Of a stretch of DNA of 64,000 bases, positions 640 through 24,995 are shown piece after piece. This DNA is from Diprion similis (lineage: Eukaryota; Arthropoda; Insecta; Hymenoptera; Diprionidae). The notes under the pieces were generated by a model. That model saw nothing but the letters and a program-made list of their open reading frames with translations. It was not told the DNA's origin and did no database searches. Within the stretch, counting starts at the first letter, position 1. Each line of letters starts with the position of its first letter. The position numbers and the translations under genes were made by a program. The stretch spans positions 788,501-852,500 of the forward strand of contig NC_060107.1 of NCBI RefSeq assembly GCF_021155765.1, written 5' to 3'.

Positions 640-1261
640 ATGAATCGCAAGGTGTTGGTAAGTGTCGTGAAACGTTTTTACATGTCAACAACGTGTAAGG
701 CATACTGCATACAAGTGTCGTGAAATCGGAACTTGATGGTCAAATAATTTTCAAAGTAGTCAATTATACTACCAACGGTAAAGGGCTCCGCAGAATTCTT
801 ACGGAAATTGGGATTTTCGGGACTTATGTCCATGAGAATTTTTCGAACCAGGAAGATATGTTCTATAAAATACTGAAAATCCAAACAATTTCCTGAAGGA
901 TTCTGCGGGTTCCGTTTACCTCAGTTTGATTATCGCCTTATTTCTTCCACAGTACGTCTTGCAATTGGTGCTACTGCTGAGCGTAAGCTTCCTCGACATT
1001 CCTGCCGAAGCGTAAGAACTTTTTTCTAGTTTCTAGTTTCGAGTATTTCCGCCAACTCCAAATAATTTTGATCGTGAATACTCTTTCAGGAAGAAAGTGA
1101 TCATCAACGTACCTTACCGAGTGAAAAACGTTAAGCATACGCACACCATCTACAAAATCATCCCCCATTACCACAAGAGCAAAGGCCATGGCCACGGCCA
1201 CACCCATAGTCACGAGCATGAGCACGAAGAGGAGGGTGAAAACTTTGAGTACTATCGATAA
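640..1261 (+). CDS. Secreted His-rich protein, VP-motif family member 1
   Basis: Three coding exons, 640-657, 953-1011 and 1090-1261, join in frame to 82 residues. Donors are TTG|GTAAGT and GC|GTAAGA; acceptors are CCACAG and TTTCAG. Exons 1 and 2 encode a signal peptide (MNRKVL, then a Leu/Val-rich core, then IPAEA). Exon 3 opens with KKVIINVPYRVKNVKHTHT, the motif shared with six other genes in this window. The tail alternates His with Gly, Thr, Ser or Glu (HGHGHTHSHEHEHEEE) and ends FEYYR; it could bind divalent metals, which is inference. Intron phases 0 then 2 match the other members. I know no named family for it. It is probably secreted into extracellular matrix or cuticle. Intron 1 carries a small foldback element. 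Confidence 0.8.
788..908. mobile_element. 121-bp foldback (MITE-like) element, family A, in intron 1 of gene 1
   Basis: The two ends are 23-base terminal inverted repeats matching at about 20 positions: CCGCAGAATTCTTACGGAAA at the left, and the complement of TCCTGAAGGATTCTGCGG at the right. The inside is related to the arms of the larger foldback at 10563-11203. It has no coding capacity. It ends 44 bases before the exon 2 acceptor. Confidence 0.7.
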
Positions 1262-2461
1262 CTCGATCCAAAGCAACTAGCCCGTTACCATATAATAGAT
1301 ATCTTTCGAATTAAGACACGTTAAGACGATCTGAATGTCTAAGCCATACGACCTAGTAATTATTAAATTTAAGGATATGATAATATCAATCTTGTATTTC
1401 ATAGAATGTAGTATGAAGCTATCATTATTTCACTTCTTCGTTTTAATGTTATAGAATTTCAAACCCTGTTGATGTTCCGCACATTTTATAATTACAGCAA
1501 GTAAAAGAATGCTTTACATCCAGTTTATTACGTACCTTGATTTGCCCATTACGAGTAGAGTTAAGTACCGATGTCACAGCGGAAGAGAATCCCGAAGCGG
1601 AACAAGGCCAATGGTAACGATCTCGGCTTGTCTCCATGGAAGGAAATTCACATTGCCTCTTGATCCCCGCAGCAAATTCCTTGTTTGCGATACGCCGTAA
1701 AACTGGAGATCAGAAACTGAGAGGGCTACTAATTGTCATGCAGAAGAACCTCCCATCAGGTTTAGGGTCAGTGACTTTTTCGGTGCATTCGTTTCAGGAC
1801 ATTGATCTGGGATTACTTCCGTACCTACCTCACGATCAGCGCTCAAAATCTAGTCGTAACATCAAATGGTGTCGTTTGACCTTAATGGTCCTTACGAACC
1901 TGGGATACACAATGAAATGCAAAGGCGAGGTGGTAGGGACGTTGAAGATAAACCAGGAAGTAGTTGTTATCACCAAGAAAATGCCTTGGATTGTGATATC
2001 TCTTGTAAAAGTATTGATAATCCAAAGCTTTCACTTATCATTAGTTTAGTATAGTGATTGCCGCTTGAATGCAACGTCGCTCAACATTGTTGTCGGCAAT
2101 CCCGATCCGGATAACTTGATGACCTTAATTAAATCAGTTTCTCTTTTGCTTCGATGACTTTTATTATACTCGGGAAAAACTGAAGTGTTATTCGTGCTCG
2201 TCAATTTTCTATACCTGACAGAAAATTTTTATAAGATAGCTTAAAGACACACGCTTTCCGATGTGATTTGATAACCGCAGAAGCATTACTTGGACAGATT
2301 TATACTTTTCATTTCTCGGGGTCTCAGTTTCTAAGGCTAACAATAAAACCAAGTTTCACGCCTATCACAACGGTAATCGCGAAAGACGAGAGATGCCACG
2401 GCGAAAGCGTTCGGCATGACTTCTCTTTGTTTATATTCTGGAACAAAGACGGAGCAAAAAG
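1262..2461. other. Spacer between secreted genes 1 and 2
   Basis: It contains the 3' UTR of gene 1 and then unassigned sequence. A 137-codon open frame at 1636-2049 has no signal peptide, domain or family likeness and was not accepted. No canonical AATAAA was identified for gene 1. Confidence 0.5.
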
Positions 2462-2534
2462 TATAAAAGGCGTTTAAAAAATACGGCTTATAAACGGAAC
2501 GAATAACAAGATTCTTCTCAAACCGATCTCAGTC
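2462..2534 (+). promoter_or_regulatory. Core promoter of secreted gene 2
   Basis: TATAAAAG at 2462-2469 and a second TATA-like TATAAAC at 2489-2495 precede a good arthropod initiator, TCAGTC, at 2529-2534. The initiator fits the second TATA (about 42 bases apart) better than the first. Which one is used cannot be told from sequence. Confidence 0.5.
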
Positions 2535-2609
2535 GTTGCAAGCTGCACATTCATCCAAGCTTCACCAGCTTCCTAAAGTCTTTTGCTACTCAACGGAGGT
2601 CCAACTAAC

Positions 2610-3534
2610 ATGGTAACGTAAGGCCTGCATTTAAAGTGACGACGTGGTCCATAAGTCATAGCCATCTTAAGCCACTCGTAACTCTCTTTCACAGAGGATA
2701 ACGGAGTTCATGTTCCTGACAGTACTGAGCCAAGTCCTAGCTGGCGGAGGCGGCGGGAAGCACCAGTAGGTATTCGACGATAAGAAAAGGGCATTTTTGT
2801 CTGATTTTTTGAAATCCTGAGTAGCCCTGACCCCTCAATCCAACAATCGACGAACGGTCTGTATAAACATAACAAAAACTTTCCCATTCAGTGTGCACTT
2901 CAAAATCCACGTACCGGACATCATCAAGCACCACATCCACACAAAGACGGTATTCGTCCACGTGCACCACGGTGGTGGAAAGAAGAAGATGGTCCCAAAG
3001 AAGAAGGAAACGCACCACCACGAGTCGGGTCACCACGAGGACTGGAGTTCTTGGAGTTCGTACGACGTCCACGGGGGTGACAAGGAGCACCAGCGGCACG
3101 TCAAGAGGCCAAGTCAAGGCTACGGCTACCCTTCGGGTCCACAGGTGGAAGAATTTCACGGACATCCGGTACCGCCCCCGGAAGAGACGCCGGTAATGCA
3201 TCACGGCGGTGTCGTCGGCTACTCGTACCCGCCGCAATACGCGATGCACCCGGAGCTCGGGGAGTTCGGGAGCGTCGAGGAGGCCCCGCACAACGAGGTG
3301 AGACCCTACAGAGACGAGTACGAGGAAGGATACCGGAAGGGCTTGCACACGCAGACAGGCCACGTGCTCTCGGAGGAGCTGAAGAACTTTTATGACAACC
3401 AGTTCGAGGAGGGCGACGACGAAGCTCAGACCGGACACAATAACGGGTACAAGATCTTTGAGGAGTCAGAAGATGCTGACGCTGCCGGTGAACACGGTGA
3501 CGGCTACGTTTCGGCAATCATGGACTCAAGATAA
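2610..3534 (+). CDS. Secreted His/Glu-rich protein, VP-motif family member 2
   Basis: Coding exons 2610-2612, 2695-2765 and 2892-3534 give 238 residues. The first coding exon is only the ATG (ATG|GTAACG); reading on to the next possible donor (AC|GTAAGG) would put a stop just after the join, so this junction is forced. Exon 2 supplies a signal peptide (MRITEFMFLTVLSQVLA) and a GGGGGKH linker. Exon 3 starts with the family motif VHFKIHVPDIIKHHIHTKT, then HVHHGGGKKK, a His-rich stretch, and a longer Tyr/Pro/Glu/Gly region not seen in the small members. The C-terminal half is acidic (DEYEEGYRKG, EEGDDEAQTG). Phases 0/2 match the other members. No known domain is visible; an extracellular structural role is inferred. 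The canonical AATAAA lies 357 bases after the stop. Confidence 0.85.
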
Positions 3535-3890
3535 AGAAAAATTGCGTTCGAACTACTTCGACAAGCGAAAGTGCAGACGGTGCGGAGTGATTAATGTCGA
3601 AAGAAAAGAGACTCTGCAGTTCACGGTGATTGATTCAACGCCGAGATCAACTCGAATCGTAAAGTTTCTCCGAACTTACAAATAATTATTCTAGAGTAGC
3701 GTAGCTTTTTTTTTTGTTTTTTTTACACTATTTAACTAGGTCGACGACAAATTAGTTTCGTACTTCTTTTATACCTATAACGTACATTTTTTATTTCCTT
3801 TTATTTTATTACCTTTGTATGTACCAAATCGCGTAACTATCGATGCGTAAATATTTATGAGAATCTCTGCGAAGTGATCGTCAAACTGTA

Positions 3891-3896
3891 AATAAA
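3891..3896 (+). terminator. Polyadenylation signal of secreted gene 2
   Basis: AATAAA is followed by T-rich sequence with TTGTTTTTGTT within 100 bases, as expected downstream of a cleavage site. Confidence 0.5.
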
Positions 3897-4546
3897 TTGG
3901 TAACACTTATCGGAACTGTACTCTCATTTTCTTCCCAATGCCCAGCTGGTCACTTCTTTTTTGTTTTTGTTCTTGTTTTTTTAAATATACTTTCTAAAGA
4001 ATTGCACACCATCCAAGTACTGGCATTGGATGCATATCATATGGAAATCGACAGGAACGATTGATTAACATCAGGTGTACCAAGACTGGTTCGATTGAAT
4101 TTTTTATATTAAAAATAAAAAATGACAGACGAAAACATAAAATAACAAATAACAAAGTATTTACAGGTAACAAATAAGGTTAAACTTAACATGACCTATA
4201 CAGCTATTGATGAACAGTGGCTAATCTAGATATTCGGGTACCTTAAAATCTACGACCAAAGTAAGACACAGTATTCACATTATATGTGTGTGTGTGGGTA
4301 ATGTAGGTACCTACGTTGTGCGGGTGAGTATAATGTTATAGATGTGTTAATAGTAGTTCAGACTGTAGATGTACCCGCTAGCGTAGGGCAATCTACTCTG
4401 AATGACAAAAACATATCGGGGAAGATAATGATTAGACATGATTGGATGGGGTTAACGGTTAAGGGAGGTTGTAAGGTAGAACCTTTTCTATGTACTCTAC
4501 GATAAGGTAAACTTGCAGCGCGACGACGTAAAACAACGACGATCGG
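3897..4546. other. Convergent spacer between secreted genes 2 and 3
   Basis: It lies between two tail-to-tail genes and must hold the 3' UTR of gene 3 (minus strand). A short GT run is at about 4284-4297. No gene was seen. Confidence 0.5.
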
Positions 4547-5279
4547 CTAATGGCCGCCGCCATATTCTTCTTGGCCACCCCAGCCGCCACCAAAGTCGTG
4601 ACCGCCACCGCCTCCGCCAAAGTCATGACCTCCGCCAAAACTGCCGCCTCCAAATCCACCCCCAAAGTCATGGCCGCCACCCCCGAAGTCATGGCCACCG
4701 CCTCCGTGACCTCCAAGGTCGATTGGGTGACCGACGGTGTAGCCGAGGACCTCGTACTTGTCTCCACCGCCGCCGCCGCCGCCCCCGTGGTGAATGTGTT
4801 TCGTTATCGTGTGCGTATGATGAATGGTCTTGATTTTATACGGGACGTGAATTACCACGTGATCACTGAAATTGAAAAATTCTCGGTCAGCAACATCGTG
4901 AGGAATAAAATTTGCTTTCCTTTATCTGCTTGAGGTATTTTTACGGAGGTCATTAACGCAGGGGGGGAAAATCGTTCAGTCGAACAGAGAGAAAGAAAGA
5001 GACCAAACATCGTGCGTGTTGTTCTGATTTCGCCCGAAATATATTCGACTGGAAAATGAAAGGTGAAAGGAAACTCGAAGCCAATTTGCGTTGACACTTA
5101 CTGTCCACCGTGTCCGCCTCCGCCAGCGGCTGCAAGGCTCAGGAGTGTCGACACGACGAGAATGACCAACTGAAAAATGAAATAAGACAGATATGAGTAT
5201 GGTGAATAGAGTGCAGGTCGTTGGTGGTGCCTCATTGACGAGAAATGCTACCGAAACTTACAGACAGGCTGAGTGTCAT
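4547..5279 (-). CDS. Secreted Gly/His-rich protein, VP-motif family member 3
   Basis: On the minus strand, exons 5279-5262, 5169-5102 and 4865-4547 join to 134 residues. Donors are TCT|GTAAGT and CA|GTAAGT; acceptors are TTTCAG. The start MTLSLSLVILVVSTLLSLAA is a clear signal peptide, followed by AGGGGHGGH. Exon 3 begins with the family motif HVVIHVPYKIKTIHHTHT and HIHHGGGG. It then has DKYEVLGYTVGHP and a tail built on repeats of GGHDFGGG, ending QEEYGGGH. Phases 0/2 match its neighbours. Glycine-rich tails with Phe/Tyr spacers are known in cuticle and silk-like proteins; that function is inferred. This gene is inverted relative to genes 1, 2 and 4. Confidence 0.87.
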
Positions 5280-5382
5280 CTTGCAAGCTGACGTTGAGAC
5301 CCGGTCAGGAAATGTAACCGCTCTACTACTGCGAGCTCTCGTCCACTCGGTTTTGATCTGCTTTACACCGGCAACCGGACTC

Positions 5383-5390
5383 CTTTTATA
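5383..5390 (-). promoter_or_regulatory. TATA box of secreted gene 3
   Basis: On the minus strand TATAAAAG lies 104 bases before the start codon at 5279, so transcription would begin near 5355. Confidence 0.6.
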
Positions 5391-8300
5391 TGATAGATTT
5401 ATAAAAATGAAAGGACTGAAGACTCAGCATGAAAGCCTCGTGTGAAAGGTGTTCCGAGTGAAAAAAGAGCAATTGTACAGTGCATTTGTGGGCAGGGATT
5501 GGCCGGCGGGTCGGTATGTTTGTTTTATATACCTACCGGAGATCGCACGCCGCCTGCACGAGAATGTGTTTCATTATCTTTTTTATTTCATTTCTTTTCT
5601 TCACGTCTTTCATCGTCAAACTTCATTTTTACCTCGGCATGTTAATGAAAGGACGTTTGATAGCCGGACCAATCCTAACTCAAGATCAAGAGGCCCTCTA
5701 ATTCGGTAGTACTGTAGTAGGCAATCGTTGTCGGTGAAAATAAAAAGACAAAAGCCAGTCGCCGCGTTAAACACCCGAGGGTAATTGATCATTTCGCCTT
5801 CTCAGGATGTCGCAATTACCCATTCCTTTCCAGCGATTTCTCAAAGGACATCCGCTGTGCCATTAGTTCAAGTCTCTCTCCGGAGTCTGCTTTAAGATGC
5901 AGGTAACCAAGGTGACTTTAGATCAAGCTTGGAGGAGGGTATTTGATCGCAAAGGACTCGATGCAGGAGTGGAATTTGGTAATTCAAGAAAATCATTGTT
6001 AACGGATCAGTAGGTCAAGAGCGGTTAAATGTAGTGAAATGAGTGGCGATGTTGACATTGAGACCAGACACCATTCTCTCTCCTAAGAGCCGGAACTGGA
6101 GCATTGAACCTTTTCGAACGTATGTTTGAATATGGTGGCGACCTAGACACAGTGCTCGATAGCCGTTACGGCGAGATAGTTGCGTGGAGGGAAAGGGAAA
6201 TAGATTCTGGTCAGCACGGTCATCGCGAACTCTCGTCTCAGGAACAACAAAACAACTGTATAGAAAATAGAGCAGAGTGGTTTAGGTCTTTTTTTCTCCG
6301 CCCATGATACCTACACGGGAAGTTTCCCCTACAAGGAGTCCAGCTGGTGAAAACCTAAAGTATCACCGCAAGTCACAAGCGACCGCACCGTGGATCGCGT
6401 ATCCATGGTCCTCCGGGTACCGGGTGTCGCAAAGTTCCTGGATCCGTCGATTCTAGCTTCCGAGGGAAACGAGAAATGAGGAAAATTCAGGCTTGATCGT
6501 TCCATTCCGCCGGCAATTACAAGCGGGTGAAAACATTCGAGCTTTCTTGCCTGGAAATCCTGTACTTGTCTTCGCTCCGCGAATCACACTCCGGGGAATT
6601 AGTGCCTGTGTATTCAACTCGACTTACGCTTTTACCTACTACAATGTGCTGAACACCGACCAAGTGCAAAACGAATGTTTCAGCTCTTCAACTCGACGTA
6701 ATGCAGCGCCGGGTAGAAAGTGCGGTAGATTAGATTTAGCGCGTTTTCTGATATGCAATTATATTATCACAGCTAGGAAGGCCGTTTCACTTTGCATCGT
6801 GGAAAAATTTCATGCCAAACTTATTGCGGTGGTGAAACTTCTTAATGAAAATGGCCATAATTTCGCACTGGAGTCTTCCTGATCCCGAATTATTATTTAG
6901 ATCTTCAATTCTTCCTTCTTTCTCACACATGTATTCAGACTAAGAAATTACCCTGCAATGAGACTCAGAGTCATTCATAAAAGAGGCGAATGTCGTGATA
7001 GGCTGCAATCCAAGATGACGTCATGGAAATGTAACATGGCACCCATGTATCCGACAACTGACTCCACGTAAACAGGTTACTTGAGGTTGCTTATTTATTT
7101 TCGTGTATTCTGGTAACTGAAAATGGTAGTTTGTGGAGTCAGAAGCTGCAAAAATAATAATATAAACACTAAAAGATAAGACTTGAAAATTTTTTTCATT
7201 CCCTGAAGAGGATAATCACGTCTACCTTACTTACGTTTAAATTTGGCGCCTATGTGACGCCACCTTCTATACGTTTTCTGATTGGTTTAACTAAAGCGTA
7301 CGTACATTGTTTCATCTTATTTCCTTACATCATGGCCTTGATTAATATTCGGTTACCCTATGAATTGCTCATGCGAATAGTACTAGGCGTATCGGTTTCC
7401 TATAGACAGAAAAAGGAATCAATAAGGAGAAAAATGCCAGATTGATAGCCTCCAGCTTCCCCGGTTGAAACCGTCTTGAATTTTGTTTCAATTTTCATTT
7501 ATTTTTACAATCTCATTCTATTTCTTTTTCTTTTCTGTCTCTCACCATTCTCTGCCTCTCAAGATCTTCATAATAGAGAAAATCGGAAGTGTTGTACAAA
7601 ATATGATTTATTGCATATAGAACAGAGAAGAGGGAAAATCTACAGCGATTTATTGCCGTAGATTAAATTAACATGCGTGTTGTTTATTTTGCACATATAC
7701 CATGACTACTTTCTTAACAGCTTCTTCATGAACATTAACAACTATGATTTATGGATTCTTCTTTATCTATCGCATTTTAATGTGCTTAATTTTGATCATT
7801 ATCATTATTATGTATCATCGCTCATTATCATTTTCTATCCATAACTTTGAAACGCGAAGGTGAAAGTCTCGGCAATAACTAGACTGAATAGACGCATAAA
7901 CTATAATGACTGTGTTTATCAGCTCTATTCAAACATAACTCTGGTCAACGGATAAGTATTGGCGCATTAGTTCAGTCATGCATTGTTGAAGTAAATATTT
8001 ATCGACTCATTGGCTCCCCAATTCACGGTCAACATCAGAGGCTCCAGCTGCTGCAGCTTATTTCGTATTCAATAGACAAAATCCATGGAGAGTTTCGATT
8101 ACGCAACCGTTTTACGCGTGCGGTCGTTCCATCCGCATCGATTTGTATACCATTAAGTGAAATTTGTTGTTTATAAGAAAATTAGAGACATAAGACATAA
8201 TATTATAATATCAGTCACTGATTTTTATATGTTTCATTGGACGTGACGAAGTTTCCTTATATTTCATAAGGAAATAACTAACAAATAACGAATAAAAAAA

Positions 8301-9317
8301 AACGAGTGGTACCCATATCATTAAAGAATCCCATAAGAGTTACACTGCTCAACAAAAAACATCACTTTCTTCTTATTTTTGATTTTGATCCCTTTTTCAG
8401 ATCGTTGGAAACCAAAATCAAGGCTGAACGCCCATAGTTCTATCATTAGCGAGATGCGATGAAGTGAAGAGTGAAACTTAGACCGAATTTTCTCCTATCC
8501 TATTCGGTGTTGAAGCGATATAAAATTGTTCCGTTTTACGGCCAGCACTAAATTATCCTTTCTCCATTGGACGTGAGATGTTCACGGCCGGCAGCTGCGT
8601 CGAAGAAGAAAAATAATATCCGCTGTTTACCTCGGCTGCTGGTCCACCCCGTGTCGAGCCTTCTATACACCATGTCGGTGGTTTTTGTCCCCGTAATAGC
8701 TCAGAAATTGAGTGTCAGCTGGAGCGGGGATCCCGAGCTCGTCGAAGCTCGCTCACTCGCTTCGCGGCTCTTCGTTCGTTTTCTTTTTATCGCCTAGGTG
8801 TACTCGCACACATGCAGATAGCTTACAAAAGAAAATAGGTGAGTATCAAGACCTCCTGATATATCTGGATCACGCTGGCCTCGCGACGACACTCGCTTTT
8901 CAACCGTGAACCTTAAGCCTCCAGTAGATCAGCGATCCTTCGCACAGTTTCGACTTTTGATTCAACAACACAACCGGTTCGGAGGTGGTTTGCAAATTTT
9001 TTTTCCATTTTTCACCCCTGCTACGAGATGCGATTGGTGGTAAGTTTTCACTTTCTTTGTTTGATTCCCTAAAATCCTTCACCAGCTGCAGTAGAAAACC
9101 AAAAACAAAATTTAAATAGTTATTAGAATCAAAAAGAATCTAAAACAGTAGTTCGTTAAAGAGTGTACAGGTTGGACGGTCAAAAATTATACCTATTTTT
9201 AGGAGTTCTTTTTTTTTCAAAGAAAATTAAAACGTTCGGAGTAATTTGACTTTAAGGGCTTTATTATTTATAGTTTCAAGAATGTTTCGGAATTGTTTCG
9301 TTGAAATTAATAACAAA
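5391..9317. other. 3.9-kb spacer upstream of secreted gene 4
   Basis: Several open frames of 60-130 codons occur, but none has codon structure, a signal peptide, a domain or splice context I can support. The leader and promoter of gene 4 should be near the right end; no clear TATA box was recognised. Confidence 0.45.
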
Positions 9318-12031
9318 ATGGTGGCTGTAAGTGTCTTCATTTTCTTTAAAGTGAAACGTAAAAATAGGTATAATTTTAGGCCGTCTGATCTGTATCCTTC
9401 CACCTTTCCCTGAATTCAACTAAAAATTCTGCGACTCATCCTTCTTGTATAACTTCTTTAGGTTGTCTTAACACTGGGATTCGGATTATGCGGACCGACG
9501 CTTGCTGACACGTAAGTAGAATATTTAATATTCGATGCTTATACGTAGGTACGTATTAGTCACTGGTGTACCTAGTCGTCGAAGACGAGTCTGAAGAAAT
9601 AAAATAACAGTTGTGCTTTTCCGGATAAATAACTAACCTATCTCGTGAGATTCTTAAACTTTGTGAAACCAAGGAAGTAGCCATAGAGACCCCAAAGCTT
9701 TGCTTCAGCTCAGCTTTCAGTTTTTGCCTGCTCTTAAACGTTGTTATCGGACAAACGTGTTAAACTTTTCGGAAATAGAAAAATTCAGTTCAGTTTTATC
9801 CTTATAATTCTACGAAAGCATCGGGGGTTCAAAGTACTTCACAAAATTTACATTTTCGGAGTTCATGAAGATTAAAACGTTTGGCCGCTGATTCGGATTG
9901 CCAACGTCAGCATCGTCACCGTCACACGTTTGGAAATATTGTCAATCCTTCTAACCGACGAAATTTCGCGCAATCATAAAATTTCGATCGCATTTCAAGG
10001 CCGAGCACTCATTCGGCCTCCTGAAACAGGTTCAATTACCTTCTTTGTTGGATCCCCTCCGCTCGCGTTCGAGCCTTTCTCCTTTCACTCTCCTCCGGCG
10101 TACGCGAGTCGATCGCTTTTTTCGTCTGCAAATGATTGTTTCCCGTTCCAGACGAGAGGCTCGCCAACTGTGTCACGATCCTGCGGGTTAGCCAAACGAA
10201 TACAATACCAGCGAGTAGTTGGCGCAAGAAGGCCGCTTCTGTTTCCTCGCCGATTTGTTCATTCATTCCCTAGCTCGTCGTGTTCATTAATTACCACTTC
10301 TGTTGCAGGGAAAAAGTCGTCTTCGTAGTTCCACGCTACATACGTCGAAGCTTTTCCAACAATGCGGCACCCTTCTACAAGGTCCGCGTACCAAAACGAC
10401 CCTTCTTCGTCGGCCATTACGCCGGAAACCCAGGCAACGGCGACCGCCCGTTTTTCCCAGGAGGAAAGCAGACCGTTGGACAGAATTTGTGTAAATTTTA
10501 AATACCATATATCGTATTTCCAAATGATTTTCTCATAATATCAGTTTTCAACAAAAGGGACTATACAGAATCCTTATGGAAATTGGCTTTCGGTAAAATT
10601 GGTTGGATTTTCAGTACGCTATAGTACATATCCTCCTGGTCAAAAGTTCTCGTGGACAATTTCCAAGAGACAGACTTCGGAAGAAAGATGTCCATAGTTT
10701 CTAACATCTATATGGATTTCCTGATTTTCATGTATTACAAAGCTTCAAGGGGACTAAATCAAACAAATCACTCAAAAAACTGCACGCTTGATTCTCAAAG
10801 ATATGCAGAAAGCTGTGGTTGATTCCAGCAATGCATCGATTCCATTCGTGAACTCGCTGGTTCACCGGAAGGAGATGCAAGGTTAGATTTCGCGTGAAGA
10901 ACGAAACCCTCAGACTCTTGCGATAATCGACTTGTCCTGTTTTTCACGCCTGTGCCAAGTCTATGAGTATCGGCTGTGCAGTTTTTGAGTGATATATTTG
11001 ATTTCAAGTCCACATCGAAGCTTTGTAATTCGTAAAAATCGCGTGATCCATAGATGACAAAAAATCCGTACACCCCCCTTCCGAAGTCTATATCTCGGAA
11101 ACTACTGGTTTTTTGGACTTGTATCCATGAGAACTTTTGACGGGGGAGATATGTGCCATAACATCCAACCGGCAGCCAATCTCCATAGAGATTCCACAGA
11201 GTGCTTTCCAATGCAATTGAAGTATCGATACGTTTTTACAAATCACAAAAAAATGTACTGTTTGCATTATTTTGGTCAGATCACGGTGCGGATTTCGGGA
11301 AAAACTTTGCGGGGGCACAGCAGCAGCAACAGCATCATCGAGAAGTGCAGAACCAGGTTATAATACCACACGGCAAGGGTATTTCCCACGGTGTGAGTTT
11401 CGGGAAGGGATACATCCCGCAAGAGGAGTTGAAACGGGCGATCGAGAACTACGCCGGATTCCCCCGGGGGGACGAAAATCAACTCCAGGACTCTGCGGGT
11501 CAGGGTTTCAACTTCGAGGACGAAGGATACCTGCAGCGATTCGAGGGGCAAAGCGTCGCGCCGCAAGAGGCTCGGTGGGTTTTTCCTCCGAGCAACGAGG
11601 AAGGGCGGAATCAGGAGCCCCATCAAGTCGAGCATGAACAGTACAAGATGTTCGAGGAGCAGGGGTCGCATTCGCCCCCGAACGAGCAGCTCTTCTACAC
11701 GAAGTTGAGCGAACAGCCCCGTCCGATTTCCAACGGCGTTCATCCCTCGGCCAGGATGACGGAGCACAAACTCACCCCCATCGTGCTTCAGGACACCATT
11801 GACATGAAGGAGTACATTGAGAAGGTCGAGGCTTTCACGAGGAGCTGGCCTCTTCAGGGTCTCGCATGGAATAATCAACAACCAAATTTCCCAGGTCTGA
11901 CCTTCCCGCATATCCAAGGGGTCAATCCCTGGGCTCCCAGCTTCCCGAGCAATCCCAGTGGCGGGTATCAAGTTCAGGAAGAATCCGTCGAGGAACCGAT
12001 GAAACGAAGCTTCAGTGTCGCGATGATGTAG
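9318..12031 (+). CDS. Large Gln/Glu-rich member of the VP-motif family (gene 4)
   Basis: Four coding exons, 9318-9326, 9462-9511, 10309-10490 and 11280-12031, join to 330 residues. The start MVAVVLTLGFGLCGPTLADT is a signal peptide split by a phase 0 intron. The phase 2 intron precedes EKVVFVVPRYIRRSF, the least conserved copy of the family motif. Exon 3 continues with PFYKVRVPKRPFFVGHYAG and a Gly/Pro-rich stretch. Exon 4 begins HGADFGKNFAG, then a QQQQQHH run and a long Gln/Glu/Pro-rich region without His-Gly repeats, ending EEPMKRSFSVAMM. The third intron (donor T|GTAAAT, acceptor GGTCAG) is phase 1 and holds a 640-bp foldback element. If that intron is retained, translation stops at 10501 after 83 residues, the size of the small members. 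No known domain was recognised. Confidence 0.78.
10563..11203. mobile_element. 640-bp foldback element, family A, in intron 3 of gene 4
   Basis: The left arm (about 10563-10790) and right arm (about 10965-11203) are diverged inverted copies. The outer ends read ACAGAATCCTTATGGAAATT and, complemented at the right, a GGAATCTCTATGGAGATTGG-type sequence. Inside, GTCAAAAGTTCTC is answered by GAGAACTTTTGAC, and TCACTCAAAAAACTGCA by TGCAGTTTTTGAGTGA. The ends and inner blocks resemble the element at 788-908. No transposase is present. Confidence 0.75.
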
Positions 12032-15000: not shown

Positions 15001-15860
15001 TCCACTTTTCTAGTCTCCATAATCTTCCCACAATTACATTTATTCTGTAAAAACAGGCATTTTCAATACCTTGTTTATTTAAAGCGCAATTATGCAGAAG
15101 AAAAAAAAAATGACAACGCATGTCGAAAAATGAACATAAATCTGGAATACTCAATCGAAACAAAGTGTCTCATATATTATACCCTGTGTCGCAAAGGGTT
15201 AAATGTCCGAACATATTAACCAATGAAAACATCAGAGATCAGAATGAGAAGTAAATAACAGGAAACGACTGTATTAGAGGAACCGGAAATGGTTCGATGA
15301 AGGGACTGGTCCAGAAGTTTCACTCTCGTAAATTGGTAGCATGGCAGGTATTAGCTGTACCGGGTCTTTGGACTACAACACTTTCTACGCATCGAAATGA
15401 AGGAAATAAAAACAACAAAAAAATAAATGAATAAATAAATGAAACACCGTTCAATCGAAAGTGGTCGAAAATGCACCGACGGTGATGGACCAGTTCCGAA
15501 CCTCGTGAACGATTCCAAGTCCGCTCTTGAAGCACACTCGACAAAAATCGAGCGACTTGCAACGCGCTAATACCTAACGGATTTAAAATAAAGGAATCTC
15601 GTGTTCCGGAGTGCAATAACACGTGGATTAAGCAAGCCGATTGGCTCCTCGATAATACGCGGACGATCGGTTCGAGGACCGCCCGGAGCGCGAATTTCTC
15701 TGGGATCTCTGGGCGTCTGCAGCTGGGAACCGGTGCCGAGCCCCCGGCTGACCCCCGTGGTCCCCGCTCTGCTGGGCACGTGGACCCAGCACCATGAATG
15801 CTCCTCTTCCATCTCCGCCCTCCCACCTCGCGCCGTCCGATACTTGTTATTTCGCGGCGC
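12032..15860. other. 3.8-kb spacer between secreted genes 4 and 5
   Basis: It starts with the 3' UTR of gene 4. Short open frames at 13652-13879 and 14291-14679 show no signal peptide or family motif and were not accepted. One copy of a dispersed repeat is at 14889-14995. Confidence 0.5.
14889..14995 (-). repeat. Dispersed repeat, family C (ATGGCGGATCC type), diverged copy
   Basis: Read on the minus strand it has the blocks GGTTTTTGGGG and GTGGATCCAGTATGGTGGAC in the same order as the copies at 30713-30997 and 42195-42350. The match is imperfect. Confidence 0.5.
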
Positions 15861-15863
15861 CCC

Positions 15864-15898
15864 TATATATACCCGAGATGATCCTCGCATATATATAA
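15864..15898 (+). promoter_or_regulatory. TATA-type promoter of secreted gene 5
   Basis: Two TATA-like runs, TATATATA at 15864-15871 and ATATATATAA at 15889-15898, lie 90-120 bases before the start codon at 15985. The second would place the start of transcription near 15920. Confidence 0.5.
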
Positions 15899-15984
15899 CA
15901 GTTTCTTACTTACCGTGCAGGTGAACACCCGTCCGACCAAGAGCGGAGAGACACAACCACGTGTGTTCGCCTATCGCTTCAGAT

Positions 15985-18468
15985 ATGGCGTCAGGATTAA
16001 AGAAGGTAAGCTCATTTCGTCGTTCTGACGGATACTTGGAACCTGAAGATCGCTGACGGACAGGATTTTACAATCAAGTTTTATGATCAAGTTCAACTTC
16101 ATCAGATATACTTGAGATCATTGCGATCTAGTTTTCGCGAAAATTCTCTCCCGAATTTCGCGAGTAGTGCAGTGTCGAAATTTTATTTATTTAGTCATTT
16201 GTTTATTTATTTAAAAACACAGACTGTTGTACAGTAGCTAGGGCATTAACTACCTGCCTCCCATAGAGGTAATCCTGTTACCTGTGCGTGGGTAGATAAC
16301 GATTTCGAGATTCAAATTATTAACAATAATAAAATATACGAACTATGCAAAAATGAATTTATATAAATAAGAGTGTAGAGAAGTACAGAAATAATATACA
16401 AAAGCACAAAAGAAATTCAAATCGGTATTTTAGCAATGTAATAACAGGTTTTTAAACGTTTGAGCTCTTTCAAGATGTAGCGTTAAAAACTTTGAATTAC
16501 ATGGTCCTGTCATTTTCATTTCGTTTTTCAGATTCCTTGCGCCTTGCTCGCAGCAACGGTATTCACGGGATTGATCGCTTCGACGACGGCCACTTTTGGA
16601 AAAGAACAGTAAGACCGCACTGAATTTGAATCGAATTGAACGCACTACATTCTTGGCTACTTTTTTGAAAATGTTTAAAGCTGTGTGACGTGGTTGATAT
16701 TGAAATTGGGCAAACCTGAACGAGCTTTCGAAAGCTGTAACTTGTATTTGTACAGCATACGTTATTGACTGGCCTTCCGCCTCACATGCAGGCTATTAAA
16801 TTTCTCGTTTCGTTCCACTTTTCAGCGTTCACATAAAGATCCATCTGCCCGAAATAGTGCAGGATGTTCATCACGAGAAGAAGATAATCAAGCACATTGA
16901 GGACCATGGCCACGGTCATGGTCACGGTGGAGGCGGAGGCGGAGGCGGAGGTGGAGGTTACGGAGGTGGTGGTGACCACATCGAGCACATCGAAATAACA
17001 AGCCCAGGAATCGGGGGTGGAGGTTTCGGCGGCTACGGAGGAGGCGGTGGCGGTGGAGGTCACGGAGGTCACGGAGGTCACGGAGGAGACATCGGAAGCT
17101 TTGGAGGAGGTTTCGGCGGGGGATTCGGAGGTGAGAACGAATAAGAGAAAACCCGGCATTAATGCCACCGGGAGCTGAGCTTAAGGTCACCGAAAGTTGC
17201 GCGATTTCTGCTTCACCGCATGCGGGGAATCGGTAACCAGTTTCAATGAATAATTTCTTTTTCGCTACGAAGGTGTTGGATTGTATACGTGAAGCGGGTG
17301 TCTTTCACTCTTATCCAAGCGGCGTAATCTTCGTTTGAATTTCACCGCAAATAATAACATCCGCCACATACATCACGATCTTCTCTTCAAGACCACCTTT
17401 CTCTCGTGAATCGAGCTCACCCATACAGCATTTCCCATACAGCTGCTGCATTCTTTGCCGCCCGATCTTTCCTCGTAACTCAAACTGCAACGAAACTCCT
17501 GCGACGCTGCACGTACAGCATCCACTTTCGTTTTCGCGACCTTATAAGCTCCATAAGCGAATACACACGTCACGATGTTCGATCACTGCAACCTTCAATC
17601 TCTATAACCTACCCAGCTTATAAGAAGTATAGAGTGTCTTACGCCGGACAGCAATTCATTGATAACAATTTCAGGAGGCGGACACGGCGGTGGTGACTTT
17701 GGTGGATTCGGAGGTGGTGGCCATGGCCATGGCCATGGTGGAGGCGGAGACGGAGGACACGGAGGTGGGGACAGTTACAGCGTCGTGACAAGCTACAGCA
17801 GTGGCGGAGGAGGAGGAGGACATGGAGGCGGTGGAGGATTCGGTGGCGACTTTGGAGGCCATGGAGGCGGTGGAGGATTCGGTGGTGACTTCGGAGGCCA
17901 CGGAGGAGGAGATTTCAGCAGCTACGGCGGAGGTGGCGGTGACTTCGGAGGCCATGGAGGAGGAGATTATGGTGGCCACGGCGGAGGCGGTGGTGACTTC
18001 GGAGGCCACGGTGGAGGCGGCGACTTCGGAGGCGGTCACGGTCACGGAATCGAAATCGGCTCAGGCTCCGGATACGACCTGAGCAGCTTAAGTAGCGGCG
18101 GTCACGGCGGTGGCGGATTCGGAGGCGGTGGCGGTGGCCACAGCCACAGCCACGGCCACGGCGGCGGTGGTGGTGGCGGCAGCTACAGCAGCGGAGGCGG
18201 CTTCGGCGGCGATGATCACGGCTCCAGTTACAGCTCTGGCAGCTTCTCGAGCGGATTCGGCGGCAGGTAATTACTCTAATAATGTTCTTCATTTGTAGGA
18301 TTTTCTATAGTTTAAGGACGAGATTTCTTCAATTATCACTGTTTAAACTCTAATTCGTTCATTCTATTTTCCACCCAATTCAGCTCCTCCGGTCACGACA
18401 GCTACAGCAGCGGTGGAGGCGGAGGCGGAGGCGGAGGTGGCTTCTCCGGATACCACTACAAAAAGTAG
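15985..18468 (+). CDS. Secreted Gly-rich VP-motif family member 5
   Basis: Five exons, 15985-16005, 16532-16608, 16826-17130, 17675-18266 and 18384-18468, keep frame and give 359 residues. The start MASGLKKIPCALLAATVFTG is a signal peptide; the first two introns are phase 0 and phase 2 as in the other members. The motif is VHIKIHLPEIVQDVHH, followed by KKIIKHIEDHGHGHGHGG. The rest is dominated by glycine with His, Phe, Asp and Ser spacers (FGGHGGGGDFGG, SYSSGGG), ending GYHYKK. A tyrosine- and serine-spaced Gly tail is typical of insect cuticular or silk-like structural proteins; the role is inferred. Failure to splice after exon 3 gives a stop at 17144 (short form ending GENE). The AATAAA is about 520 bases past the stop. 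Confidence 0.87.
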
Positions 18469-21029
18469 AAAGGTTCATATCGCTCTGTCCTTCCAAGATT
18501 CCTTCCAGGATCCGGACGGAGTCTGGAAATTCTCCGGAACATCGAAACAGCGTTCGAAAATCCGTTGCCCGATATTTTCACCGCGATAAATTCAAAGCGA
18601 ATATATGAAACGATCTGCGTATAATTTATGTGTATAAGCCCACGCGATAATTCGTATTCGAAAATTATTATAATTTGACAAAGAGCGGTCTACTCGATGC
18701 CGAGTGCACCGCATGGCCAATTAAGCATATTTTCGAAATTCATTTTTACCATTTGATCGCGCAAGCTGATTGTGCGCTTTATTCACCTGTCGGCTTGACG
18801 AGGAATTCAAACACGATGTCTCGTGCAATTCATCAGGCTATACACCATTCTCAATTATCATTATACTCATTTTTTTTTATCCATAAGACAAAGGTACTCG
18901 ACTGTTGACCTCACTGATTTGTTGCTATGTTTGTATGATATTTTATTGTAAATACTTCATCCTGTTAGTATATTGTTTATTTTCTAATAAAAAACTGCTA
19001 TAAGTACAAAAATATATTACATAGACTAGATTTATTCCGAATAATTTGAACCTGATCCAGTAAGCTAGTTAATTTCAGACCTTTCGATCGTCTCGATCGT
19101 TCGATTTTACCGACAATCGTACCAGCGGTCGGTAAAACAGCGTGCAATCATCCCATCCCCCAGTGATGTCAAAATGCAATTCAATTATTTATAACGTCTA
19201 CTCTACTAGAACAAAATTATACTTATAAAGCACTTTAGCCATACTGTGACGCTGGACTCGGTCTGGTTAAGTAGCTCGAGCAGCTCCGGACCCATCACTC
19301 AAAATCGATGTTTTTTAATTCCGAACACGATGCAATGAGAAACAAGACGGTGCGACTATTTCGGCGACATACACAAATTCCAGTTTTATCCATACGATTA
19401 AATTTCTCCGCGGGCTGATTTCGCGACAAGTCTACGAAAATTCGAGTAGCTTCGAAAGCCGGACGCATTTCGGTTTTTTAATGAATCACTTGAATTATTC
19501 GAAGCCAAATTTAAACTCAGCTGTCAATCAGGTTAGTCAGACGGCTAAATTACTTCCTTACGTGTCCTCGTTTGCTGCCAACTTACTAGCATGATTGATT
19601 TTGACAATTGACAGCAACATTTCACTATTACTATAAACTTTAGCAACCATTGCAGTTAGCTTCCCGGCACATTGTTGGTTGTAAACTTAATAATACAGTG
19701 TTGAATACTTCACATGTCAACAATATGCTAGCTAAACTGACTGTAATGGTTTCAACAGTTTATGGCTTTTTCGAACAGACAATTACCTGCAATATCTTGC
19801 CACCTAATGACCGAATCATGCTCATCAGGGAAGGTAAAGGAATTTAAATCTCAGCTCAGATATTATTTAACTCAAAATTCAGATGTCCCAGAAAATCTCA
19901 ATCAATTCGATCAAGGTTAAAATTGGAATAGAATTCAGCTTCTAAGATGGCTGTTTCTATGAAAATCTGGAATGTCATAAGAGTTCGAAATTACTCCGAA
20001 GAAACCTCGAGTAGCGTGTGTATCCAGAAAAACTTTGACGTAATTAATCCGACACCACAATGAGCAAACCACGATAGGTTATACTTTCATTTTTACGTAA
20101 TCCATTATACCTACTATAAAACCGTATATATCTATATAGACAAATAGTAACACATAACAAATTATGTGAATTGTGAATAAAAAGGAATTCCCGATACGTT
20201 TGCGACATTCGTAAACGAAACGTTGAGCCATAAAACGACAGAAAAAAAACAAAAAAAACCAAACGATCCGGAACACTTTCCTTGTCACATTGGCGCGGAA
20301 TGAACCACCGCACGTGAAATTCACGTCTGTAGAATGAACGGGATAAATGCGTTCTTACGACTGGGCCAACAGCCTGTTATCGTCATGTTTTTTTCATTGA
20401 TTTATTGGAGAAACTGTGTAATAGAAACGAGTGTGAAGTAGAAAAAAAAAAAAATCTACACACGAAATCGGCACCCGGTCACCCGAGATAGTTGGAGATA
20501 TTTAATTTTTTTGATACCTCCTTATGCAACTGCATCGACGGATTAATGGCCGCAGCAGCGGCACCCAGTTCTTTCTTCTCTCTCTTCTTGTATCTCATTT
20601 CTAATTGATCGTGAGCTCCGACTTCGCGTTCGCAAATTGCTCATCGATCCAACGATCTCTACGACAATGCAGCCGGCATCGGAACACAATAAAACCCAAG
20701 TAACTCGGCCACTCTCTGCACAAGGTATGATTATCGCGAGTACATGCGATGCCCGAAGAGTCGGAGGGCATAATAATAAGAAAGGAAACTCAATAACCGA
20801 CGGATAATTAGAGCTGCGAGGAGAGAGTGGCCGGAACAAGACGCGTGTGTCGTGCTTTAACGAATAAACACCTCAACAACTTCCGCTCTCAGTGTGCACA
20901 CAATGAACCGAACACACCCAGAGACTTGCTGGGTAGGGAGAACGTCCCCGGTTACGTTGTCTCTTGTAGGTACGTATTAGGTACACTCCTTTTTCCCTTG
21001 TTGCCTCTCTCTGATTATGTTTCTAACTT
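18469..21029. other. Spacer between secreted genes 5 and 6
   Basis: The left 520 bases are the likely 3' UTR of gene 5. A weak imperfect inverted repeat is at about 19633-19765. No supported gene was found. Confidence 0.5.
18986..18991 (+). terminator. Polyadenylation signal of secreted gene 5
   Basis: AATAAA in CTAATAAAAAAC is the first canonical signal noticed downstream of the stop at 18468. Confidence 0.45.
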
Positions 21030-21035
21030 TATAAG
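21030..21035 (+). promoter_or_regulatory. TATA-like element of secreted gene 6
   Basis: TATAAG lies 88 bases before the start codon at 21118, the spacing seen for the other TATA boxes in the cluster. Confidence 0.45.
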
Positions 21036-21117
21036 GCTTGCACCGAGATACGATTTTAGTCTGCACATTGTGACTGCGAAGAGACCGCTGCTCGTTTTAC
21101 TCCCTGTGATCGTCGTC

Positions 21118-22084
21118 ATGCCGAACCTCCGTTACACTCAAGTGGGTTTATACACCGTCATTGTTGCAGTACTTTGTAAAACAAATTCGAACATATTTCA
21201 AGTGAACACACCTCACATGGCGTAATTTTTTAGCAAATATTAATAATATATCGTGCATCCCGTTGCGAATGATGTGGAATATTCAGTCGCTTTTCTTACA
21301 AGGAAGGCATCCCAGGTGAATCTCTCCGATTTGATTTCTTTTTTAATATCTTATAGTAGACTGAAAACTAAGTGACATGCATTTTATTTTATCTGCCATT
21401 AAACACTTTGAGGGGGTGAAGTCACCCTCCAAAGTGAGGCATGTCGAGAGCCGATTTGGCAGTTTCACCCACAAGAACGTAATATTTTTTAACCAATCCA
21501 ACTGGAAAAGTTTTCGCATGAGGAGAAATGAAAAACTGCCAAATCGTCCCTTGACATGCCTCACTTTTGAGGTTGGTTTCACCCCCTCAAAGTGTTTAAT
21601 GGCAGATAAAAGAAAATATGTATCACTTAGTCTTCTATGACATGTTACAAAACAAATCAAATCGAAAATATCGACTTGGGATACCTTCCTTGTTAGATGG
21701 AACACGACCGGACACTCCAACGTTTTTAACGACTCTCTTCGTCCTTCTGTCATCTAGATCGCCGTAGTGATGATCGTCCTCCTTGGAATTACGCAATCGC
21801 TTCCGTTGCCTGGAGGAGGACACGGCGGCAAGCAGTAAGTCGTTTTTCTTTGAACTAAGAATTAGAAGATGCGATATAATTTGAATTTGGCGCTGTCCGG
21901 CTATCGGAATTGGGGCGCAAAGTGAAATAAACACTGATTTTACAGCACGCACTTCATAATCAAGGTGCCTCACTTCATCCACACGCACCATCACACCCAC
22001 ACGAAGAAAATCTACATTCCTGTCAAGTCTCACGACACCGGGCACCACGATCACTCCGATTACGAGGCGGCCCACGGCTGGTGA
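21118..22084 (+). CDS. Secreted His-rich protein, VP-motif family member 6
   Basis: Exons 21118-21141, 21758-21834 and 21946-22084 join to 79 residues. The start MPNLRYTQIAVVMIVLLGIT is a signal peptide; GGGHGGKH follows at the phase 2 junction, almost as in genes 2 and 3. The motif is THFIIKVPHFIHTHHHTHT, then KKIYIPVKSHD and GHHDHSDYEAAHGW. About a quarter of the mature protein is His. The first donor (CAA|GTGGGT) is less canonical, so exon 1 is the least certain part; it is supported by phase, by the signal peptide it makes, and by the TATA-like box 88 bases upstream. Intron 1 is occupied by a 394-bp MITE. An AATAAA lies about 140 bases past the stop. Confidence 0.83.
21299..21692. mobile_element. 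394-bp foldback MITE, family B, complete, in intron 1 of gene 6
   Basis: The element begins CAAGGAAGGCATCCCA and ends with its complement TGGGATACCTTCCTTG, and direct TTA triplets (21296-21298 and 21693-21695) flank it. Much of the element is palindromic: CTGCCATTAAACACTTTGAG is answered by CTCAAAGTGTTTAATGGCAG. A 3-bp TWA target duplication is characteristic of PIF/Harbinger elements, so a non-autonomous Harbinger relative is possible. No coding capacity. Confidence 0.8.
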
Positions 22085-22226
22085 AAAGGATCAAAAGGTC
22101 CTGGTCCATCTCTGCCCGTCAGCACCCGACAATTCAGCGCTACTTATAAGTGATTGTGTAAGGACCCTTTACATCTAGGTTATCGTTCTCCGTGATTATG
22201 CGACCCAAGTGTTGTCTGTTGGGGAA

Positions 22227-22232
22227 AATAAA
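22227..22232 (+). terminator. Polyadenylation signal of secreted gene 6
   Basis: AATAAA about 140 bases after the stop codon. Confidence 0.5.
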
Positions 22233-23557
22233 TAATCACCTATTTTTATAATAAATGATTCAACTGCCAAGCTTCCAGCCATGCCTTCCAGTTTCTTTTA
22301 TCCCCAATAAATTACCCACCTTGATGTAGCTTACACACTTATATATATACATATATCCACACTTAATGCTTCGTAGAAAGTTATAAATCCGTTTGGTCAA
22401 CCGGCGGAAGACCGACTTGGAATTTTGCCGGATAGTTGAGCAATGTTCGAATGATCGTGCAGACTGGATCAGACCCATTATGTTATTGTATAACGTGAAG
22501 CTGTCGGAGATTTTCTTTTTTTCTTTTGCTTTCTTTCTTTCTTTTGCCTCCTTTCTTTTCGTTGGGTGAATTGGTTATTTCTTCACCCGTCAATTGCCTC
22601 TTACGACTATAACGATAGCTTGATAATATGTGTACAGCACAAGTGTCGTTGGTTAGAAAGTACGTTCTACTTCACCTCAACGACGTTACTGGGAATTTTT
22701 AAATCCGATGATTGACGCGGTTTTATTGCTAACGCGGATTTAACAAACACTTGATTCTAATATGCAAAGTTGAACGATTAGAATAGCGCCAACTTTCTGC
22801 GGCTTCTTTCACTCTTCTCATAATTATAACTAACAATAAAACAGATTTGGTTTTATTCTGACTGAATTTAGCATTCAACTTAAAGACTTAGTGCAACATT
22901 CGACTTACTCCGAGTTTAGGAAGTAGAAAAATGAGTCGATCAATATTACAATTTTCTCTATAAATTCGTATTTATTTTGTTGTAACAAAAAGCAAGAAAA
23001 TAAAAATAGCTACAGCTATGATCATCTAACAATAAAATTACTAGATCGACAACTGGCCAAAGCTCGTCAAAACTCTGGATCGTCTTGCTCTACAACGATG
23101 ACTTTTACAATTTATTATACGGAAAGAATAGATTAAATCTCTCGTCAGTTTGTACTGCGGTATCAGAATACACTTAAAGCTAACAATAAGTGAATTGGTT
23201 TTTAAGTGGTTACAAATTCTCAACCTATTTACGATCGATACATATCGGAACATTGTTTGATTACAGCTCATGGATGCGCACAATTTTGTGGTATAATGGA
23301 GATTGTTCGTCACGAATCTTATCGTGTAATTACAATTACAATATGAATTACATTACGTGTATAAATGTACATAAACCGAAACGTCGATTCGGCGTCAACT
23401 GAAACAGAGAAATCGGGAGATCAGACTCATGGAACAACAACAAACCCGAACAAATGGCACAAGACCCAGTAATTTCGTCTCGACTAATTACTTACCGAAA
23501 TTATTTACACAAGAAGGTGACGCCGCCTCGACATCGGCTTTCAGACTCTCCTCCTGA
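22233..23557. other. Convergent spacer between secreted genes 6 and 7
   Basis: It holds the 3' ends of two tail-to-tail genes. A CT-rich run is at about 22510-22560. On the minus strand a possible AATAAA for gene 7 is at about 22973-22978. No gene was seen. Confidence 0.5.
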
Positions 23558-24995
23558 TCACCACCATGGCTTCTCCTCGTAGTGGACCGGGACGTGGACC
23601 TTCTCAACGTGGTGAACCGGCACGTGGATTTTCTCGACGTGGTGGACTGGGTAGGGCACTGGGACTGGGACCTTCTCCACGTGGTGGACATGGACCGGGA
23701 CCGGGACCGCGACTTTCTCTACGTGGTGTACGGGGTACGCGACCTTCTTTACGTGGTGGTGATGCACGTTGTGGACGTGGTACGGGACGTGGATCACGTG
23801 GTGTTGGCTACGGGGATGAAATTCACGAGTTAATCGCGAAGACTCCAATAATTACACCGATTACACAGGTCAACAAGTGTTATCGTCGTTCTATATTCGT
23901 TATACTCACTGACTGCCACCCCAGCCTCCTGGTGCCGGTGCGCTGTTTACGGCGGCGAGCATTCCGCATACGAGAAGCTGAAACGTGTTTCGATATTTAC
24001 GCGTTAGAAATTTACACCGAGACATGCAGTCTCTGGTTACAGCTATGCAAAGGCAATTGCGATTACCGTGACCTGAATGTCAGATTTTGCACGCATTTCA
24101 CCGTTCGTTCGAAACTCTTTTTTACGAATGCGGACTGCATATTGCAATGTAATAAGTATACCTCACTACTCCACGATTAGTTTGCGAATCAACGAAATAG
24201 TAGGAAAAAAATTTAATCCAATTATCTAAAAAAGTACATTTTTCATACGTTCGAAATTCGAATTATTATGGGATGATTGCACCTTTTATGGTCACCTTTA
24301 TTAAATTCTGTATTTATTAATTTCACTTGCCATCACTTCGATTACTTGATTTATGAGTTAAACACAATTCTGAGCAAATTTTGGCTAGAATTTTATTCAA
24401 AATTAGTATTCACTTCGGTACAAACATCTTCGTACTATTTGTGGACATTGCAGTACTGACAGATTGAAAACTAAGCGACACGTATTTTTTTGTATCTGCC
24501 ATTAAAAACTTTGGGGGGGATGAAACAACCCTACAAAGTAAGGGATGTCAAGTGATGATTAGGCAGATCCACCCACAAGAATGTAATATTTTTGATCCAA
24601 TCCAACTGGAAAAGTTTTTCCATAAGGAGAAATGAAAAACTGCAAAATCGCCCCTTGACTGCATGCTTTACTTTGGAGGTTAGTTTCACCCCCTCAAAGT
24701 GTATAATAGCAGTTGAAAAAAAATACGTGTCGCTTAGTTTTCAGTCTACTATAACATATTAAAAAAGTAATCAAATCGAAGAGATCGACCCGGGATACCT
24801 TCCCTGTAAGTTGAGCAAAACGAACCTTACACTTGAACTACCGATAAAAAGACTTTAAAAGAAAAGAAAAAAACCAAATACGAACGATTCGAAGTCCCGC
24901 AATTAAGGCAAGTTGGAAAATTCTAAGTGACGATAAATCGAGTGTGAGAAATGAACAGTTTTTTCAATACTCACGGCGACGGTGAAGGAGTACAT
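23558..24995 (-). CDS. Secreted His/Val/Pro repeat protein, VP-motif family member 7
   Basis: On the minus strand exons 24995-24975, 23977-23910 and 23807-23558 join to 112 residues. The start MYSFTVALLVCGMLAAVNSA is a signal peptide, then PAPGGWGGS at the phase 2 junction. The motif is HHVIHVPYHVHNVHHHHV. The tail is a tandem repeat of units like PVHHVEKV and VPVPVHVHHVEKV, ending HYEEKPWW. The alternating Val-Pro-Val and His pattern resembles low-complexity Pro/Val-rich insect cuticle proteins, but repeats of this kind evolve fast and this does not prove homology. A minus-strand TATA lies 73 bases before the start codon. Antisense open frames of 204 and 83 codons over exon 3 are shadows of the repeat. 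Confidence 0.86.
24452..24806. mobile_element. Foldback MITE, family B, left-truncated copy in intron 1 of gene 7
   Basis: It aligns with the element at 21299-21692 over about 350 bases, including CAATCCAACTGGAAAAGTTT in the centre and ATACCTTCC at the right end. The left terminal 55 bases or so are missing or unrecognisable, and no TTA flank is visible on the left. Confidence 0.75.

Follow-up and report, generated by a model that had tools for sequence, protein, structure and literature searches.

A tandem gene cluster of Diprion similis that probably encodes cuticle-type structural proteins and shares a short module in six of its seven members

Seven neighbouring genes and their exon plan

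A stretch of 64,000 nucleotides from Diprion similis (NCBI RefSeq assembly GCF_021155765.1, contig NC_060107.1, positions 788,501 to 852,500 of the forward strand), hereafter called the window, was analysed for a cluster of seven genes, G1 to G7, at positions 640..24995. The seven genes occupied 24.4 kb, with five on the forward and two on the reverse strand in the order + + - + + + -, and encoded predicted proteins of 79-359 amino acids (aa). The structures of the genes are displayed in Table 1. The cluster was most probably a real and well-delimited tandem family of ordinary cuticle-type structural proteins, combined with a short module that was found in no catalogued family among those searched.

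The gene models were reconstructed from splice junctions in the genomic sequence. In all seven genes the frame was open from ATG to stop, with a GT donor and an AG acceptor at each junction used, which bore out the claim of a preliminary description that seven neighbouring genes with spliced frames lie within about 25 kb. Exon 2 encoded a hydrophobic signal-type segment, with a best 11-residue Kyte-Doolittle mean of 2.0-3.4 within the first 35 residues, and its end was in phase 2 in 7/7 genes, in agreement with the same description; signal-type start and low complexity were judged without a dedicated signal-peptide or low-complexity predictor. Two further features attributed to the whole cluster held only for part of it. 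A tiny first coding exon ending in phase 0 was unambiguous in G1, G3, G4, G5 and G7 (5/7), but not in G2 and G6. For G2, the first coding exon was either the ATG alone or non-coding with the start in exon 2, where an in-frame ATG was present, and exon 1 of G6 depended on a weak donor, GTGGGT, selected among phase-0 candidates, with an in-frame ATG also in exon 2. The GGGHGGKH-like linker before the second junction was represented by a Gly-rich linker, read by eye, in G2, G3, G6 and G7, but not in the other three genes. The junction codon was CA|Y (His) in five of the seven. In 6/7 genes, TATA-like sites preceded the assumed ATG by 78-148 bases, a count made without a control.

Table 1. Gene models of the cluster, with positions in the window and leave-one-out scores of the module at the start of exon 3
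Gene	Position (strand)	Exons	Protein length	Tail	Module score
G1	640..1261 (+)	640-657, 953-1011, 1090-1261	82 aa	His-rich	36.0 bits
G2	2610..3534 (+)	2610-2612, 2695-2765, 2892-3534	238 aa	His/Glu/Gly	35.5 bits
G3	4547..5279 (-)	5279-5262, 5169-5102, 4865-4547	134 aa	Gly/His	47.7 bits
G4	9028..12031 (+)	9028-9039, 9462-9511, 10309-10490, 11280-12031	331 aa	Gln/Glu/Pro/Gly	-8.1 bits, not recognised
G5	15985..18468 (+)	15985-16005, 16532-16608, 16826-17130, 17675-18266, 18384-18468	359 aa	Gly-rich (GGHGG, GGDFGG)	26.6 bits
G6	21118..22084 (+)	21118-21141 (uncertain), 21758-21834, 21946-22084	79 aa	His-rich	40.5 bits
G7	23558..24995 (-)	24995-24975, 23977-23910, 23807-23558	112 aa	VHHVEKVPVPV repeats	39.4 bits

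A short module at the start of exon 3

A module of 22-30 residues, opening exon 3, was common to six of the seven genes, all but G4. In these six it read h-x-I-[HNK]-[VL]-P-x-x-[VI]-x(4)-H, where h stands for H in G7 and for V, F or I in the other five, with the consensus h-x-I-H-V-P-x-x-[VI]-K/H-...-H, and the residues T-H-T followed it in G1, G3 and G6. The motif had been written earlier as [VI]-x-[VI]-x-[VL]-P, a form that fitted G1, G3 and G5 but not G2 and G6 (F at the first place), G7 (H at the first place) or G4 (F at the third place). For comparison, the seven modules were aligned over 24 columns counted from the splice site that opens exon 3, so that the register was independent of similarity. 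The sum-of-pairs score of this alignment was 696, compared to a mean of -248 (standard deviation 60) for shuffles in which the residues were permuted within each module and the composition was kept, and none of 2000 shuffles scored as high. A leave-one-out position-specific scoring matrix (PSSM) was also scanned over the six frames of 264 kb, comprising the window and 100 kb on each side. The scores of G1, G2, G3, G5, G6 and G7 ranged from 26.6 to 47.7 bits, and the best non-member position in any of the seven scans reached 18.0 bits.

Because the PSSM ranked each of these six above all non-member positions, the common origin proposed for the cluster was well supported for six genes, which, as judged from their sequences, carry one common module beyond reasonable doubt. 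For G4 common descent with the six was only plausible, as 3135 of 198157 stop-free positions (1.6%) scored above its -8.1 bits, and its likeness to the others consisted of position, exon plan and VVP only. These data also bear on the explanation that the seven small secreted genes have no relationship to each other and that their VP motif and exon plan are convergent or due to chance. The failure of G4 in the module test agrees with such an origin, and His- or Val-rich stretches can align through composition; however, the shuffles preserved composition, and the six members exceeded all non-member positions with an anchoring set by splice sites. Chance is thus contradicted for the six genes and possible for G4, and as an account of the whole cluster it is extremely improbable.

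Further copies were sought in the whole 269-Mb genome, in which the window lies on contig C3. A loose pattern gave 551 matches, which were not examined one by one, against 535 for the reversed control, and so showed no excess. A stricter pattern gave nine matches (control 6), two of which were G3 and G7; around the seven others, and around one loose match (C3:637,374), no score in the 601-base flanks exceeded 9.4 bits, compared to 34.8-62.2 bits for members. A third pattern matched at three places (control 0), namely in G2, in G5 and at a site on contig C1 that was rejected as a member, since it ran into stops and its context was dissimilar. Nothing above 8.5 bits was found within 3 kb of five other matches to the linker pattern. 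One protein search of the genome recovered G3 and G1 (G1 with E 0.09), and another recovered G7 alone. Taken as a whole, the pattern and protein searches revealed no further convincing member, although distant copies may be missed because the strict and third patterns recovered only 4/7 known genes; this result supports, but does not prove, that the family is confined to this cluster.

In the Pfam search, where G5 was represented by its first 135 aa, the cut-off was reached by none of the seven proteins, and the sole match at E up to 10 was that of DUF2799 with G2 (E 0.1, sub-threshold). No solved protein chain matched the module at E up to 10. The earlier statement that no named family matches was therefore sustained for the module itself, as far as Pfam and solved chains were searched, but in part not for the tails, where G7 fitted the PV/PY character of the low-complexity, proline-rich cuticular proteins (CPLCP), and G3 and G5 may fit a loose definition of the glycine-rich cuticular proteins (CPG). 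As far as tested, the module appeared to be uncatalogued among the families searched, with Vajk, CPLCP and CPG compared by description and not by sequence.

Tail composition, known cuticle proteins and the probable role of the cluster

After exon 2, Cys was absent from all seven proteins; one Cys occurred before that point in G4, G5 and G7. The tails differed from gene to gene as had been described, being His-rich in G1 and G6, His/Glu/Gly in G2, Gly-rich in G3 and G5, Gln/Glu/Pro/Gly in G4 and Val-His-Pro in G7. In the part after exon 2, Gly accounted for 52% in G5, 41% in G3, 11% in G2, 9% in G4, 7% in G1, 4% in G6 and 0% in G7, and Ala and Ser were at most 5% and 10%, respectively, in G1-G7. 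His made up 11-28% in six proteins. G7 contained 30% Val, 27% His and 13% Pro, and its ten PV/PY pairs corresponded to 12.0 per 100 aa, compared to 0-2.2 per 100 aa in G1-G6. Tandem coding repeats were found in G3, G5 and G7.

Val-Pro-rich cuticle proteins offered one comparison. In the fly, vajk-1 to -3 encode cuticle proteins and sit in the Nimrod cluster, with vajk-4 outside it, and CG16886 is a vajk gene; the title of a 2017 article by Cinege reportedly places cuticle-protein Vajk genes within the Nimrod cluster. In the accessible parts of the respective papers, CPLCPs are recognised by a high density of PV/PY pairs (PMC7497268) and have three conserved motifs in addition (PMC8062583), Bombyx CPG12, 13 and 24 are renamed CPLCP12, 11 and 3 (PMC8062583), and Vajk-4 is given as the fly ortholog of Anopheles CPLCP3 (PMC8667434). 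CG16886 is listed beside BmorCPG12 with an E of 2E-66 (PMC2542385). As no published numeric threshold was found, PV/PY density was judged by contrast among G1-G7, and a CPLCP-like density was present in G7 only. This density fits the published description, and G7 may be a member of CPLCP.

The whole cluster could then be the Vajk/CPLCP family of D. similis, in which G7 would be orthologous to a CPLCP/Vajk gene and G1-G6 would be diverged duplicates with changed tails. Low complexity and V-P-rich repeats are shared with that family, the Val and Pro contents of G7 resemble the CPLCP description as far as the accessible text goes (PMC7497268), and the orthology given for Vajk-4 connects the two names. 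However, the other six genes lack the PV/PY density, and the cluster was situated outside the Nimrod region; neither CCxGY nor HEMGH occurred in the 264 kb that comprise the window and its flanks. On contig C7, at 4.083-4.103 Mb, NIM-motif genes accompanied an EMI-plus-NIM gene, which together are the Nimrod-type cluster of the D. similis genome, and a single EMI/NIM/EGF-type gene, with EMI below the cut-off and presumably Draper-like, was located on contig C8. No PV/PY-rich frame of the sought type was seen in 30 kb of C7 (4,082,501-4,112,500), of which the pattern search covered 20 kb; two frames with five PV/PY were Cys-rich NIM/EGF repeats. Synteny with the Nimrod/Vajk region was therefore rejected, and by position the cluster is not the fly Vajk locus, because the NIM genes lie on other contigs and none lies within 100 kb. 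Set apart in this way by description, an identity of the whole cluster with Vajk/CPLCP is quite improbable.

Other cuticle proteins were closer in general character than in detail. CPG proteins and the unclassified honeybee cuticle proteins GB12449 and GB12811, compared by description, appear to resemble the cluster in the Gly-rich tails of G3 and G5, the signal-type start, the lack of Cys after the signal exon and the small first exon, but the h-x-I-H-V-P...H module is not mentioned for them in the accessible text, and G1-G7 have at most two GGY per protein. TcCP30 of Tribolium, which is His/Glu-rich, is likewise a His-rich, low-complexity, secreted protein without an R&R motif; in contrast, it has a single exon, and no such module is reported in the part of the paper that was accessible (PMC4440208). 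According to the same text, TcCP30 has 21% His and low complexity, is cross-linked by laccase2, co-localises with chitin and is required for the adult moult. The His-rich Bombyx scale protein BmorCPR152 cross-links in vitro, as described in the accessible part of another report (PMC8062583).

The features of cuticular proteins in the wide sense were present in the cluster: a hydrophobic start (7/7), a Cys-free part after exon 2 (7/7) and low-complexity sequence. In the accessible account of 24 differentially expressed honeybee cuticle genes, 12 had three exons, in 14 the first exon was relatively small, and a signal peptide was present in all; Gly-richness, the GGY motif, a signal peptide and the lack of Cys in the mature part are named there as features by which two unclassified proteins may count as cuticle proteins (PMC3766229). 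By analogy, the exon plan of G1-G7 appears to be a common one for such genes. These results suggested that G1-G7 are likely to form a tandem family whose products are insect structural proteins, secreted by a cuticle-forming epithelium, and we infer a cuticle location for these products.

Several observations weigh against a cuticular role. Typical domains of CPR, Tweedle, CPAP and the other Pfam-covered cuticle families are R&R chitin_bind_4, DUF243 and CBM14, and none of these families was matched by G1-G7, with G5 represented by its first 135 aa, in Pfam at E up to 10; in fact, six of the seven proteins matched zero Pfam families at this level, so that no cuticle domain was recognised. In G4, His made up only 4% and the module was not recognisable. 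The GGY motif of honeybee proteins was nearly absent, with two copies in G5, one in G4 and none in the other five. The alternation expected for a beta strand at 170 degrees was not significant in any of the modules (0/7 at p<0.05), and an amphipathic beta strand was therefore not supported as the structure of the module. Moreover, His-, Gly- and Pro-rich secreted proteins are also contained in silk, eggshell and glues. Finally, the small first exon is not diagnostic, because 10 of the 24 honeybee genes are not said to have one in the accessible text (PMC3766229).

The proteins might accordingly belong to another secreted material, such as silk, the cement of cocoons, eggshell or a glue from accessory glands, in which the module would act as an assembly tag. 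A signal-type start followed by repetitive Gly-, His- or Val-Pro-rich tails would be equally suitable for such products, as would the coding repeats of G3, G5 and G7. On the other hand, the proteins are short, are poor in Ala and Ser after exon 2, lack the Cys needed there for disulphide-linked matrices, and share a small first exon with 14 of the 24 honeybee cuticle genes in the accessible account (PMC3766229). A non-cuticular material is considered unlikely.

If the products are cuticular, each gene would yield a signal peptide, a short Gly-rich linker (in 4/7), the module (in six) and a free low-complexity tail. After secretion, the proteins, without Cys beyond the signal exon, would be deposited in the cuticle matrix, where side chains of His and Lys, in both module and tail, would be fixed to neighbouring proteins by oxidised catechols in tanning; we infer the His cross-linking from that of TcCP30 and of His-rich Bombyx scale proteins. 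The composition of the tail, whether Gly-rich, His-rich or Val-Pro, would set stiffness and hydration. A bolder proposal, which we put forward as tentative and rather doubtful, is that the module is the hallmark of a family of insect matrix proteins not yet described, in which a fixed secretion-and-docking unit at one locus is joined to freely changing low-complexity tails, so that a single cluster of 25 kb provides materials that differ in their mechanics. The earlier view of the cluster as a system for diverse extracellular materials was reasonable but not distinctive, since cuticular protein gene clusters are generally of this kind (secreted, low-complexity, Cys-free after the signal exon and with a small first exon). 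Nothing is overturned, as low-complexity cuticle gene clusters are already known; if confirmed, G1-G7 would represent a small cuticle gene cluster with clear limits, in which the module is constant and the tails diverge, and would offer a natural series in which the composition of the tail can be related to the mechanics of the cuticle.

Repeated elements and other genes in the window

A palindromic element of about 280 bases was present in copies with 84% identity at 21358-21640, in the modelled intron 1 of G6, and at 24461-24742, in intron 1 of G7. The element was dispersed in the genome, with at least 101 matching stretches, of which many were the two strands of a single palindromic copy (40 of 266 initial candidates were scored), and the intron DNA shared by G6 and G7 was thus rejected as a trace of duplication. 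An inverted match of 45 bases (87%) between 847-891 (intron 1 of G1) and 10596-10640 (intron 3 of G4) was perhaps another dispersed element. Downstream of the cluster, exons of a sulfate-permease-family transporter, which we take to be of the SLC26 type, were identified at 31932-34312 on the reverse strand, with PF00916 in 3/3 frames tested. A C2H2 zinc-finger protein with a poly-Gln run, presumably resembling Scratch/Snail-type factors, was encoded at 52655-53827 on the reverse strand.

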